Below, in pieces: positions 57,758-64,000 of a DNA stretch of 64,000 nucleotides. The notes beneath the pieces were generated by a model. It was given only the letters and a program-made list of their open reading frames with translations, was not told the DNA's origin and searched no databases. The DNA lies in the NCBI RefSeq assembly GCF_001584165.1, contig NZ_CP013233.1, positions 1,612,001 through 1,676,000 on the forward strand, in the 5' to 3' direction. The translations under genes and the position numbers were made by a program. The stretch comes from Collimonas arenae. GTDB taxonomy: Bacteria > Pseudomonadota > Gammaproteobacteria > Burkholderiales > Burkholderiaceae_D. Each line of letters begins with the position of its first letter. Position 1 is the first letter of the stretch.

Positions 57758-57850
<93 letters not shown>

Positions 57851-57883
57851 ATTAGTTTCAAATAGATCTAAGAAGTCCCAGAG

Positions 57884-58029: not shown

Positions 58030-59271
58030 ATGGCACTGACAGACGCAGCCTGTAAAAACGCAAAACCCAAAGAGAAACCTTATAAGTTGGCCGATAGCGG
58101 CGGCTTACATTTGCTGGTGAAGCCCAACAGTGGGCGTTACTGGCGCATGAAATACCGCTTTGACGGCAAAGAGAAGTTGCTTTCCTTTGGCGTCTACCCT
58201 GAAGTCTCCCTCTCCGAAGCACGTACCAAGCGCGACAAAGCCAAGGCTCACCTGGAGGAGAGTCAGGATCCGGCGCAGGTCAAGCGGATAGAAGCCCTGC
58301 AACGGACAGAAAGTAATGCCAACACGTTCGAGGCGGTGGCACGGGCTTGGCATGATAATAAATTGGAAACATGGCAACCACAGACCGCTGCGAATATTTT
58401 GCATCGGCTGGAAAAGGATGTGTTTCCGCTGATTGGCAAGTTGCCTATTGCGACGATCAAAGCGCCAGTCATCCTTGACGTACTGCGCCAAATTGAAAAG
58501 CGCGGGGCATTGGATATCGCCAAGCGACAAGCTCAAGTGTGTGGCCAGATATTTCGCTATGCGGTAGCGACTGGCGCTGCCGAATATGATCCTGTCCCCA
58601 GTTTGCGTGGCGCCTTGAAGCCTAGCATTAGTGGTCATCATGCTTCCATTACTACCGACGAACTGCCCGAATTCATGCGCATTCTAGAGCGCAATGAAGC
58701 CCGCATGTTTATGCCGACGCGGGTGCTAATGCGAATTATGCTGATGGTGTTCGTGCGCACCAGTGAGTTGATCGAGACGCCGTGGACTGAAATCGATTTA
58801 GAGAATGAAATATGGGTGATTCCCTGGCAGCGCATGAAAATGGGCAAAAAGAAACTGAATCCCCGTAAGGTCGACCATCACGTGTTCTTGCCGCGCCAAG
58901 GCTGGGAGCTATTACGAGAGCTGCGCGCACTCACAGGCGGCAATACCTATTTGTTCCCGAATCAACGCGATCCTAGTAAACCGGTGAGCAACGGTGCAAT
59001 TTTGGCGGCATTGAAGCGCATGGGCTATCAAAACAAGATGACAGGTCATGGCTTCAGATCACTGGCGATGGGCATCATTAAAGAGCGCCTGGGCTTCCGT
59101 CATGAAGTAGTGGACCGTCAATTGGCACACCAATCTGGCGACACTTACGGTGAAGCCTATGACCGGGCTGAATTCAAAGAAGAGCGGCGAGTGATGATGC
59201 AGCAATACGCCGATTATCTGGATAACATCGGCAGCGCTAAGGTCATCGTAGGTAATTTTAAGCGGGCGTGA
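58030..59271 (+). CDS. P4-type tyrosine integrase (DUF4102)
   Basis: 413 residues. N-terminal DUF4102 arm-binding domain (MALTDAACKNAKPKEKPYKLADSGGLHLLVKPNSGRYWRMKYRFDGKEKLLSFGVYPEVSLSEAR), core-binding domain, then the catalytic domain with Arg in VFVRTSELIETPWTEIDLE, His-x2-Arg in TGHGFRSLAMGII, a second His in DRQLAHQSGDTYGEAYDRAEF and the nucleophile Tyr thereafter. It inserts and excises the element at tRNA-Ser. The protein is full length and appears functional. Confidence 0.94.
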   Translation: MALTDAACKNAKPKEKPYKLADSGGLHLLVKPNSGRYWRMKYRFDGKEKLLSFGVYPEVSLSEARTKRDKAKAHLEESQDPAQVKRIEALQRTESNANTFEAVARAWHDNKLETWQPQTAANILHRLEKDVFPLIGKLPIATIKAPVILDVLRQIEKRGALDIAKRQAQVCGQIFRYAVATGAAEYDPVPSLRGALKPSISGHHASITTDELPEFMRILERNEARMFMPTRVLMRIMLMVFVRTSELIETPWTEIDLENEIWVIPWQRMKMGKKKLNPRKVDHHVFLPRQGWELLRELRALTGGNTYLFPNQRDPSKPVSNGAILAALKRMGYQNKMTGHGFRSLAMGIIKERLGFRHEVVDRQLAHQSGDTYGEAYDRAEFKEERRVMMQQYADYLDNIGSAKVIVGNFKRA

Positions 59272-59617: not shown

Positions 59618-60508
59618 ATGAAAAAAAACGACGTACTGGAAAATGGCTTGGAACTGTTACAGGCAAATAAAACCGCAGGACGGCAAGCCGAAGATGCGCA
59701 CAGACGTAGAAAAATAATGGAATTGCTAAAAAAGCAAATCCCGTCCCAATCGCCTGCCATGAAGGCAATTGCTGCCAATGCAAAAAAGCTTGCCGAGCGC
59801 ACTCAGCCAATTCGCGAATTGCAGGCTAGGCTGAAGCCACTAGCTGAACTGCGTCAGTTTGCCAAGCTGGATATCCCGGCTATGAAAATATTTAATGCGC
59901 TCGATTTACGCAGGGACTTGGATTTACATAAGAATCTCGCCGACTCAATGATAGTCATTGAACGCTTGAGTGCTCTAACCAGTATCCTGTCGCCTGACGA
60001 TAGTGCGGCAGAAGTGTTTCGTAATAAAACAAAATTATTCTACGAAGAGAATTGCCAGTTCTTTCTAGCGATGAGTTTGATTGATGCTATCGAAGTTCAA
60101 GACGGCGAAGCAATCGATCAGTTAATGCAAAAATCTGATTTTGGCAGCATGACACTTGTTGAACTTGTCCGGATACAAAAGCAATCCAGTGAAGATAAGG
60201 AAGCCGAGTTGGCGCAGATGACTCGTGAGCTGGAGGCGCTGCAGATTGAAGCACGTGGCCTTGACGACAAAATGGAAAAAATCAAGGATGGTTTTAAAGC
60301 AGGCGCAAGTTATGCGGACAAGCAGATTTTTAATCAATGGGTGATGGCATCAAATATCGTTGTCCGCAATCTGCCTGAGTTGATGGCGGCATTTCAAAAT
60401 GCCGAATTGCCATTGCAGAAGACATATACCGAGCAAACCATCAAGGGTTGGTACAAAAAAATCATGCCGACGGTAGCGTTAAGCAACGGCAGGCCAAAGA
60501 ATAACTAG
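59618..60508 (+). CDS. Unknown protein of the element, probably coiled-coil
   Basis: 296 residues, not recognised. The first 110 residues are highly charged and helical (KNDVLENGLELLQANKTAGRQAEDAHRRRKIMELLKKQIPSQ), the middle has a less charged helical domain around residues 100-165, and residues 180-225 look like a coiled coil (EDKEAELAQMTRELEALQIEARGLDDKMEKIKDGF). No signal peptide, membrane segment or Cys cluster. The lack of a strong ribosome-binding site leaves the ATG at 59618 the only reasonable start. It occupies the cargo position between integrase and the replication module, so an accessory or defence role is possible, but nothing in the sequence shows one. Confidence 0.75.
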   Translation: MKKNDVLENGLELLQANKTAGRQAEDAHRRRKIMELLKKQIPSQSPAMKAIAANAKKLAERTQPIRELQARLKPLAELRQFAKLDIPAMKIFNALDLRRDLDLHKNLADSMIVIERLSALTSILSPDDSAAEVFRNKTKLFYEENCQFFLAMSLIDAIEVQDGEAIDQLMQKSDFGSMTLVELVRIQKQSSEDKEAELAQMTRELEALQIEARGLDDKMEKIKDGFKAGASYADKQIFNQWVMASNIVVRNLPELMAAFQNAELPLQKTYTEQTIKGWYKKIMPTVALSNGRPKNN

Positions 60509-60636: not shown

Positions 60637-60840
60637 ATGCAGCAACAGCAATCTACCAATCCATTGTGGCGCCTACCGACAGTCGTCGCGCAAACCGGCC
60701 TATCCAAATCAGAAATTTATCGTCGAATTAATAATGGCACATTTCCCAAGCCGCTGAAGTTGGGCGCGCGCGCGGTTGCATGGCCCGCAATGGAGATTGA
60801 TACTTGGATCAAGTCGCTCATTCGGGGGATTGCACAATGA
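60637..60840 (+). CDS. AlpA family phage-type transcriptional regulator
   Basis: 67 residues. The MerR-like helix-turn-helix of AlpA is plain: WRLPTVVAQTGLSKSEIYRRINNGTFPKPLKLGARAVAWPAMEIDTWIKSLI. AGGAG stands ahead of the ATG. In P4-like and ICE elements AlpA controls excision and element genes. Its TGA overlaps the next ATG. Confidence 0.92.
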   Translation: MQQQQSTNPLWRLPTVVAQTGLSKSEIYRRINNGTFPKPLKLGARAVAWPAMEIDTWIKSLIRGIAQ

Positions 60841-60926
60841 GTACGATGCATTCCCACGTGGCGGCAGGCTTTTGCGCTAAAGCCGATGACTTTACTGAGC
60901 TAGAAGTGGTAGGCGGTGCGAAATGA
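60837..60926 (+). CDS. 29-residue ORF coupled at both ends between alpA and the DUF927 gene
   Basis: Starts ATG at 60837, overlapping the alpA stop (ATGA), and ends TGA at 60924-60926, overlapping the ATG of the DUF927 gene (again ATGA). The peptide (MSTMHSHVAAGFCAKADDFTELEVV plus four residues) has no known motif. The double overlap suggests either a real small protein or a ribosome bridge keeping translation continuous. It is too short to be judged by homology here. Confidence 0.55.
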   Translation: MSTMHSHVAAGFCAKADDFTELEVVGGAK

Positions 60927-62779
60927 ACCAAGAAATTGCGCGTGTCACGAAGTTCGCATCGGAAAACCTGGTTCAGACAAGCAATGGTGAATCATCTTCT
61001 CGTCCCTTCTTTAAGGTCGATAAACGTGGTGTGTGGTTTCACGGCTTTAATCAGCAGGGTGAAGTGTTGTCACCGCTGTGGATCTGCTCTCCTCTGCACG
61101 TCCCTGCAAAATCACGGGACGCCCACAACGGCGAGTGGGGCTATCTATTAGCATTTGAGGATGCCGACGGAAAGCCAAAGAGGTGGGCTATGCCTGCAAG
61201 TATGTTGGCCGGTGACGGTACCCCGTATCGTGCCATGCTGCTGTCAATGGGATTGCAAATTGCGCCGAGTGCGCAAGCTAAAAATCAGTTGACTGTCTAT
61301 ATTCAGTCCCAGCAAACAGATATGCGCGTGCGCTGTACTGAACGTATCGGCTGGCATGATAACGTGTACGTGTTGCCGGATCGAACAATCGGGGAAAGCG
61401 GGGAGATGGTGCTGTTCCAGGCAACGGGCGACGTCACTTCCCAATTCAAACAACGTGGCACCCTGAAACAGTGGCGGGAAGAGGTGGCAGCACTGTGCCA
61501 GGGCAATGCGCGGATGGTGTTTTGTGTCAGTGCGGGATTCGCCGCCCCTCTGTTGCATCATGCCGGTATTGCGTCCGGTGGTTTTCACCTTTGGGGTGAT
61601 TCATCCAGCGGCAAATCGACGGCAGTGCGGGTGGCCGGTTCGGTCTATGGCAGCAAGGATTATCCACGCAATTGGCGCATGACCGATAACGCCCTGGAGA
61701 TGACGGCGGTTCAGCATTCGGATGCATTGTTGATTCTGGACGAGATCGCACAGGTGGACCCGAAGGTCGTTGGTGACACTGTATATATGTTGGCAAACGA
61801 AACTGGCAAGGGACGTGCGACGCAAACTGCTACTGCAAGACGTGTTGCTACCTGGCGTTTGTTGTTTTTGTCCGATGGCGAAGTCAGTTTGGCGCATCAC
61901 ATGGGGGAAGCCGGAAAAAGCATCAAAGGTGGTCATGATGTGCGAATGGCGCATATTGGTGCTGACGCAGGTAAGGGGCTCGGTATTTATGACACCTTAC
62001 ACGGCTTTACAGACGGTGCGACGCTATCAAATCATTTGATGAGCATGATTGAACAGTATCACGGTACTGCTGGCATGGCCTTTCTGGAGTGGGCGGTAGT
62101 ACGTTCTGCCAGCTTATCTGCCGATTTGCGTCAATGTGTGACTGAATTGACGCGAGACATGTTGCCGACGGATGCGCACGGACAGGTTGCACGCGTCGCG
62201 GCGCGGTTTGCATTGGTCGGAATGGCAGGGGAAATGGCGACTGAAGCGGGGATCACGGGTTGGCCGGCAGGTGAGGCGGCAAAGGCAGCTCGTGTCTGCT
62301 TTGCTGCATGGTTAGAAGGACGTGGCGGTGCTGGCAACGTGGAACATACGTCAATCATTCGTCAGGTGCAGGGTTTCTTGCAAGCGCATGGCGATGCGCG
62401 TTTTGTGTGGTGGCACCGTGCGCTGGATGATCGCAAGCAAAATACGGTCAACCGGGCGGGATTTAAACGTATGCTGACGAAAGAGGGAGCACCGATTAGT
62501 TCTAACGCCGATCATCATCGGGCATACGGCGACAGAATGCTTCTCGACGAGGTAGAAGATACAGAACTGGAATATTTTGTTTTGCCGGAAGTCTTCAACA
62601 ATGAGATGTGCAAAGGTTATAGCCCCAAGATGGTCAAGAAGCTGTTAATGGATCGGAGTCTATTGGTCACAGAAGGAAAAGGTGACAAGGTCAGAGCTGA
62701 TCGAAACGAACGATTACCAGGTTTGGGTAATACGCGATGCTATCGATTCAGCTCTAAAATCATGAGTGTGGAAGCTTAA
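60923..62779 (+). CDS. DUF927 domain P-loop ATPase of the element (putative replication/helicase protein)
   Basis: 618 residues. DUF927-type: RPFFKVDKRGVWFHGFNQQGEVLSPLWICSPLHVPA, then a core with ERIGWHDNVYVLPDRTIGE, HHAGIASGGFHLWGDSSSGKSTAVRVAGSVYGSKDYPRNWRMTDNALEMTAVQHSDALLILDEIAQVDPKVVGDTVYMLANETGKGRATQTATARRVATWRLLFLSDGEVSL. Walker A is GDSSSGKST, Walker B LLILDEIAQV. The domain is typical of P4-like satellites, PICI-like islands and ICEs and resembles hexameric helicases. The C-terminal quarter may bind DNA. Likely drives element replication. Confidence 0.85.
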   Translation: MNQEIARVTKFASENLVQTSNGESSSRPFFKVDKRGVWFHGFNQQGEVLSPLWICSPLHVPAKSRDAHNGEWGYLLAFEDADGKPKRWAMPASMLAGDGTPYRAMLLSMGLQIAPSAQAKNQLTVYIQSQQTDMRVRCTERIGWHDNVYVLPDRTIGESGEMVLFQATGDVTSQFKQRGTLKQWREEVAALCQGNARMVFCVSAGFAAPLLHHAGIASGGFHLWGDSSSGKSTAVRVAGSVYGSKDYPRNWRMTDNALEMTAVQHSDALLILDEIAQVDPKVVGDTVYMLANETGKGRATQTATARRVATWRLLFLSDGEVSLAHHMGEAGKSIKGGHDVRMAHIGADAGKGLGIYDTLHGFTDGATLSNHLMSMIEQYHGTAGMAFLEWAVVRSASLSADLRQCVTELTRDMLPTDAHGQVARVAARFALVGMAGEMATEAGITGWPAGEAAKAARVCFAAWLEGRGGAGNVEHTSIIRQVQGFLQAHGDARFVWWHRALDDRKQNTVNRAGFKRMLTKEGAPISSNADHHRAYGDRMLLDEVEDTELEYFVLPEVFNNEMCKGYSPKMVKKLLMDRSLLVTEGKGDKVRADRNERLPGLGNTRCYRFSSKIMSVEA

Positions 62780-63352: not shown

Positions 63353-63541
63353 GTGATGGCTCGCATTCGCCATGAGAATGGTGTACTTAAGCGCTTGACC
63401 GGAGCTTGTCCCGGTTTGGCGGATTCGTTTCCACCCTCCGTTCTCTTGCTCTTGCTGCAGAGCGCCGAAAATGTTGACCCTTACAAACTCGGCACAAAAA
63501 CGCTGATCAAGTGGTGGCGAAGCTACATAAAGAGCCTATAA
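63353..63541 (+). CDS. Short hypothetical ORF, possibly a gene remnant
   Basis: 62 codons from a GTG at 63353 or ATG at 63356; the same frame is open upstream for another ~80 bases without a start (AEEAFQGLVFRRNNKNHLFQ), suggesting a decayed longer gene. It contains HENGVLKRLTGACPGLADSFPPSVLLLLLQSAENVDPYKLGTKTLIKWWRSYIKSL, not recognised. It overlaps the Argonaute 3' end by 19 bases on the opposite strand. Confidence 0.3.
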   Translation: MMARIRHENGVLKRLTGACPGLADSFPPSVLLLLLQSAENVDPYKLGTKTLIKWWRSYIKSL

Positions 63542-64000
63542 GGATAGATTTTCCCTGGTAGGTCCGGCGCGTTTGCGATGGTCCGAGCCAATCGTTGTGA
63601 GTAGCGGATGCTCACAGGAACAGGGTCATAGAGAGCATCATTGTTCCAATCCATTTTTGTTAATGCCAGCACCTCGTGCGCGACAGTTTCCAAAGGTCCG
63701 CGTCCAGCATGCCTAGTCAGTTGCAAAGGTTTCGGAATGCTTTTGCCGCCTTGGTAAAAATCACCCTTGGTGGACACGCTTGGTGCATTTCCGGCAGCCC
63801 ACAACAAAACTGACGTGCCGGACCGCACAACGACCGTCCCCCTAGGTACTGGATAGTTGGAGGGAATGCTCTTGGGCGCCTCTCTCTTGGAATCTAGTAA
63901 CCAAACTCCTCTCCAAGTGGAATGCGTCCCTACTTCGATGCATTCCACCTCTGGAATCGCTGCGAGAGCATCGAAAGCACCGTCAAGCTCCTCGCCTTTG
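63523..64000 (-). CDS. Prokaryotic Argonaute, C-terminal PIWI domain (5' part beyond the window)
   Basis: The frame is open from the right edge to the TAG at 63523-63525, giving 158 residues of the C-terminus. The start of the frame reads KGEELDGAFDALAAIPEVECIEVGTHSTWRGVWLLDSKREAP; then come the Argonaute-like blocks NYPVPRGTVVVRSGTSVLLWAAGNAPSVSTKGDFYQGGKSIPKPLQLTRHAG, VAHEVLALTKMDWNNDALYDPVPVSIRYSQRLARTIANAP and the final YPYRLFM. The LTK[M/L][N/D]WN motif, the 'P-V-x-I-x-Y/F-A/S-x-x-x-A' helix and a C-terminal aromatic-rich YxxFM are hallmarks of PIWI in bacterial Argonautes. The fourth residue of the catalytic DEDX tetrad should lie near PKPLQLTRH; no Asp is evident there, so the protein may be catalytically inactive and act with an effector. 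Guide and partner cannot be determined from this part. Confidence 0.85.
   Translation of the reverse strand, partial: KGEELDGAFDALAAIPEVECIEVGTHSTWRGVWLLDSKREAPKSIPSNYPVPRGTVVVRSGTSVLLWAAGNAPSVSTKGDFYQGGKSIPKPLQLTRHAGRGPLETVAHEVLALTKMDWNNDALYDPVPVSIRYSQRLARTIANAPDLPGKIYPYRLFM

Follow-up and report, generated by a model that had tools for sequence, protein, structure and literature searches.

The right edge of the 64,000-nucleotide stretch of the Collimonas arenae genome analysed here (the window) carries, with a probability that we put at roughly 0.94, a SPARSA system, i.e., a pair of overlapping genes for a slicing-dead short Argonaute and a SIR2-APAZ NADase. The gene structure, the homology, the retained NADase residues, the loss of the catalytic tetrad, the conserved pairing of the genes and their location near an integrase and a tRNA gene are established here. 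The initial annotation of the window had placed a PIWI Argonaute, probably inactive and of the effector-linked type, in an element with an integrase at tRNA-Ser, and had called it a candidate new defence locus. The first part of this interpretation stands, and the newness does not: the effector is a SIR2-APAZ protein, the pair matches the chains of solved SPARSA complexes, and very many relatives have the same gene pair. The Collimonas pair belongs to the already known SPARSA kind and is a further case of it, not a new system. Positions beyond 64,000 are given in the numbering of the window.

A short pAgo gene and an overlapping SIR2-APAZ gene

The open frame at positions 63523 to 64000 (minus strand) leaves the window through its right edge, and had been assigned to an Argonaute on the basis of PIWI-like motifs. 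In the genome sequence, which is a single contig of 4.72 Mb, this frame continues up to position 64971 as a single intact open reading frame of 482 codons, so that the C-terminal third of the protein is encoded inside the window. Residues 7–482 match the class I pAgo model of PADLOC (pAgo_I, E 1.8e-209), and a sequence search of solved structures aligned residues 8–482 with the solved short pAgo 8in8_C (E 1.2e-96). The length of the protein and these two matches correspond to a short pAgo with only MID and PIWI domains, in line with the original assignment. The Pfam Piwi model gave a marginal match to this protein (E 0.002, under the cut-off) and no matches in a scan of the own genome; the negative result was set aside because the model has too little power for the 482-residue pAgo, which would have gone unnoticed in a Pfam search alone. 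A structure prediction of the pAgo based on 17 close homologues had a mean pLDDT of 41, too poor for use.

Upstream of the pAgo gene, on the same strand and sharing one base with it, lies a gene encoding a protein of 622 residues (64971–66839, outside the window). This protein matches the PADLOC model Aga_SIR2-PNTD1-PNTD2 (E 4.5e-209), which we take to represent SIR2-APAZ, and contains a Pfam SIR2_2 domain (E 2e-15). Only its residues 9–522 align with the partner chain of 8in8 (E 1.3e-56). The two proteins hence match the two chains of one solved complex (8in8 and sister entries), and the matched sister entries include 8JKZ and 8JL0, described in excerpts of PMC10781750 as the SPARSA complex of Geobacter sulfurreducens. 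Both genes are full length and without internal stops. Scans for promoters and terminators around the pair found sites no more numerous than in shuffled sequences.

According to the same excerpts, alanine mutants of residues N142 and H186 of the Geobacter partner, GsSir2, lose NADase activity (PMC10781750). Their counterparts, N144 and H195, are invariant in all 78 sequences compared, namely the own protein and 77 relatives, with the short pieces from loci L044 and L079 excluded. In the alignment from the structure search, read by eye, GsSir2 Y89 is kept as Y94, and T199 takes the place of GsSir2 R190, which together with a second residue is linked to the catalytic water.

The pAgo is predicted to be catalytically inactive and to contact its guide differently

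The catalytic tetrad was located by aligning the pAgo family with TtAgo, whose sequence was taken from its plasmid record. The tetrad of TtAgo is presumably formed by D478, E512, D546 and D660; the letters at these positions were confirmed in the sequence. They align to R242, P286, T321 and Q459, respectively, of the Collimonas protein, the first two pairings being weak (the first residue would be A238 if read by motif). A profile alignment independently placed Q459 opposite D660, which bears out the earlier remark that the last Asp of the tetrad is missing. None of the 81 sequences (own plus 80 relatives) has an acidic residue at any of the aligned tetrad columns, column 459 being gapped in two of them. 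Judged from these alignments, the short pAgo has lost its catalytic tetrad and is predicted to be dead as a slicer. With a SIR2-APAZ gene directly upstream, this agrees with the inactive, effector-linked type that had been favoured at the outset.

In the Geobacter Argonaute, GsAgo, excerpts of PMC10781750 assign contacts with the 5' phosphate of the guide to H166 and Q181, contacts with the first guide base to D164 and N184, and contacts with the second guide base to R190 and N195, of which R190 also contacts the third. In the alignment from the 8in8 search, H166, Q181, D164, N184, R190 and N195 correspond to H173, Q188, D171, N191, F197 and S202, respectively. H173, Q188 and N191 are invariant in the 81 sequences, and position 171 is occupied by D in 79 of them, the other two having N. 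Position 197 is F in 80 sequences and Y in one, and position 202 is S in 70, Q in six and A in five; neither R nor N occurs at the latter. The aromatic residue Y359 of GsAgo corresponds to Y373, a position occupied by Y in 47 sequences, F in 28 and A in six. Since the contacts with the 5' end are kept, a 5'-phosphorylated guide would fit, and because R190 and N195 of GsAgo are replaced by F197 and S202, a changed preference at the second guide base is predicted, with loss of the 5'-AU bias that has been reported. As far as the alignments tell, these replaced guide-reading residues are the main departure found from the solved Geobacter example. Together with the replacement of GsSir2 R190 by T199, they imply that the Collimonas pair may depart in some details from the solved complex.

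The gene pair is common and conserved among relatives

A protein search in which at least 7,997 candidates were scored gave at least 1,838 relatives of the pAgo with E values of 0.001 or lower, and among the matches listed, 119 (self excluded) show 73–83% identity. A scan of genome contigs yielded 94 pAgo relatives, the best 80 of which were taken as loci. A SIR2-APAZ gene is present upstream of the pAgo gene in 79 of these 80 loci, in four of them (L044, L050, L079 and L082) cut short by the start of the contig. The sole locus without it is L076, where the pAgo match lacks the first 67 residues. The SIR2-APAZ and pAgo matches are separated by 0–90 bases, except in L067, where the spacing is 323 bases and the pAgo match is partial. 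Relatives of the integrase described below were found in six of the 80 loci within the fetched flanks of up to 10 kb.

This pAgo is present in the own genome only of the 15 genomes of the genus, one of the 14 congeners having a distant match (30% identity). Of 399 genomes of the order, four gave a match with an E value of 1e-40 or lower, the own genome being one of the four. The phage collection yielded no pAgo relatives, and 98 of 72,556 plasmid records contain one, with at least 60% identity in two cases.

The pair is located on an island at tRNA-Ser

Downstream of the gene for tRNA-Ser(CGA) (57758–57847, plus strand), the integration site of the island, the same strand carries, in this order, a tyrosine integrase gene with an Arm-DNA-bind_3 domain (58030–59271), presumably of the P4 type, a gene for a 296-residue protein for which none of four family libraries gave a significant match (59618–60508), an AlpA-type excisionase/regulator gene (60637–60840) and a DUF927 gene (60923–62779). 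The last encodes a primase/helicase-like replication protein (match to a PHROGs primase, E 1.3e-101). The integrase, AlpA and DUF927 proteins, which had been recognised from the letters alone, were confirmed by family matches. A P4-like island has an integrase gene adjoining a tRNA gene, accompanied by AlpA and replication protein genes, and at its far boundary the tRNA 3' end recurs as a direct repeat; both features are present here, the second in imperfect form. The left repeat (57823–57880, plus strand) comprises the last 25 bases of the tRNA gene and the next 33. A second, imperfect copy lies 41.5 kb away, outside the window (99349–99403, from C1:1711349), which deviates by two mismatches over 20 bases and by a deletion of 3 bases, and in which 28 of the 33 following bases are identical. 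No stretch of 13 bases from the tRNA region recurs exactly within 38 kb, and the repeat was detected only over 78 kb with mismatches allowed; a rough hand estimate of the chance expectation for an equally good repeat is about 0.003. The presence of an integrase-bearing island at tRNA-Ser is thus supported. The SPARSA pair and the DISARM-like operon described below are both located between the two tRNA-tail copies. The island also contains a gene for a PAAR-motif protein and a next gene (79264–80615; L002:3264-4615), which together may form a cargo module of type VI secretion.

Full-length matches to the serS-tRNA region are present in 12 of the 14 congeners; in all but one of the 12, similarity to the own sequence stops at most 5 bases from the tRNA gene. 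When 20 kb downstream of the tRNA gene in seven congeners were compared with 76 kb of the own sequence, none had the right flank in common with it at this place, and the only two short matches lie elsewhere. A second tRNA-tail copy is present within 20 kb in two of seven congeners examined, about 9.5 kb downstream of the tRNA gene and exact over 20 bases in one (L110), and about 4 kb downstream with one mismatch in the other (L108). These copies suggest other elements at the same site, which looks like an integration hotspot. The sequence to the right of the island (99349 onward) is present in six of the 14 congeners with 83–93% identity, never beside tRNA-Ser. It lies on the same contig as the tRNA gene at a distance of about 137–224 kb in four of the six and megabases away in another (G006), and on a different contig in the sixth. 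Judging by these positions, a rearrangement is likely behind the displaced right flank. An empty tRNA-Ser site was not found among the congeners, seven of which were compared beside the tRNA and 14 of which were traced for the right flank.

This location bears on what the system is kept for. The pair may be SPARSA by descent but retained for policing competing mobile elements, such as plasmids or islands using the same tRNA gene, which would benefit its own island rather than serve against phages. The position of the pair inside an integrase-bearing island is consistent with this possibility, as are the near absence of pAgo matches in the congeners and the second tRNA-tail copies in two of the seven, and excerpts of PMC10474274 report activity of SPARTA and SPARSA against such elements. 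However, SPARSA is called antiphage in the excerpts of PMC10781750. Both uses may hold, and the present evidence separates neither; we regard retention for policing alone as possible, on the unlikely side. A SPARSA system proper remains our preferred reading.

A DISARM-like operon adjoins the SPARSA pair

Next to the pair, outside the window (67462–78490; L003:4462-15490), lies a DISARM-like operon encoding a methyltransferase, a helicase-like protein of 931 residues, a DrmA-like and a DrmB-like protein. Its start and that of the SPARSA pair are about 0.6 kb apart, on opposite strands in a head-to-head arrangement. The methyltransferase, DrmA and DrmB are all present by homology, the latter two under the curated NCBIfam cut-offs (score 356 versus 950 for DrmA-like, 45 versus 240 for DrmB-like). 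The 931-residue protein has no known family; its top Foldseek matches are RIG-I-like and Hef helicases at low TM-scores of about 0.2. No recognised DrmD or DrmE is encoded in the operon, nor is DrmC, which is kept in four relatives as a DrmC-like protein in fifth place. As in the DISARM systems covered by excerpts of PMC9142583, there are an adenine-type methyltransferase, a DrmA-like helicase and a separate DrmB-like protein; different from them, the 931-residue protein occupies the place expected for DrmD or DrmE, and DrmC is missing. The same excerpts report that DrmC is dispensable for DISARM.

Having lost the drmC gene that four relatives retain, the operon indicates that cargo of this island can decay, and the SPARSA pair itself could be a decayed, non-working passenger. 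We consider this highly improbable, because both its genes are full length without stops and its NADase and guide-pocket residues are kept.

Functional coupling of the SPARSA pair and the operon, as layered or mutually triggering defences, is likewise improbable, if slightly less so. The closeness of their divergent starts speaks for it, and so does a locus of Paraburkholderia piptadeniae (L062:7702-21253), in which the same strand carries, after SPARSA, genes for a methyltransferase, a relative of the 931-residue protein, a DrmA-like and a DrmB-like protein. But that locus is the only one of the 80 with a relative of the 931-residue protein (flanks up to 10 kb), and its DrmA-like gene is broken into two open reading frames in one frame; the flanks of L011, L021 and L053 contain only remote relatives of the methyltransferase, DrmA or DrmB. 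Moreover, the 931-residue family is present in five and the pAgo subfamily in four of the 399 genomes of the order, and only the own genome has both. General clustering of defence genes would explain the neighbourhood.

A more speculative reading, which we consider somewhat less likely than not, is that of an island with two layers of defence, in which the SPARSA pair is of the known kind and the operon may be an unrecognised class of DISARM, with a degenerate SF2-helicase-like protein (the 931-residue protein, Hef/XPF-like in fold, devoid of a Walker A motif and not expected to have ATPase activity) in place of DrmD/DrmE, and here functioning although it encodes no DrmC nuclease. In this reading, the SPARSA subfamily of the Collimonas pair may read the second guide base unlike the Geobacter system.

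Comparison with known systems

The mechanism of SPARSA is taken from the Geobacter complex (excerpts of PMC10781750), and from this analogy we infer, for the Collimonas pair, complex formation, the nature of its guide and target, the depletion of NAD+ and protection. The pAgo and SIR2-APAZ proteins would form a heterodimer, in which APAZ would replace the missing N-PAZ half, and a 5'-phosphorylated guide RNA would sit in the MID pocket. Pairing of the guide with invading plasmid or phage DNA would change the SIR2 domain, which, once activated, would hydrolyse NAD+, leading to growth arrest or death of the infected cell. The system would thus most likely sense invading DNA by guide RNA and then deplete NAD+.

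The Collimonas pair leaves current knowledge of Argonaute defence unchanged. It provides an example of an entire SPARSA pair carried by an island at a tRNA gene, where it adjoins another defence operon of which less has been described, and belongs to a well-conserved SPARSA subfamily whose guide-base preference can be compared with that of the Geobacter complex.

The pAgo is also similar to solved short pAgos outside SPARSA, e.g., 8fex and 8ifk (E 1e-23 to 1e-22), which we take to be SPARTA structures. SPARTA, composed of TIR-APAZ and a short pAgo, shares with the Collimonas pair a short pAgo plus an APAZ-fused NADase, but the effector here is SIR2 and not TIR. With the Geobacter SPARSA (GsSir2-APAZ and GsAgo; 8JKZ, 8JL0; PMC10781750, in excerpts), the pair shares a short MID-PIWI pAgo without the tetrad, a SIR2-APAZ partner, the Asn-His pair and the contacts with the 5' end of the guide. 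It differs in having F197 and S202 instead of R190 and N195 in the pAgo, and in its partner, which has 622 residues (aligned up to residue 522) versus 587 and T199 instead of R190.
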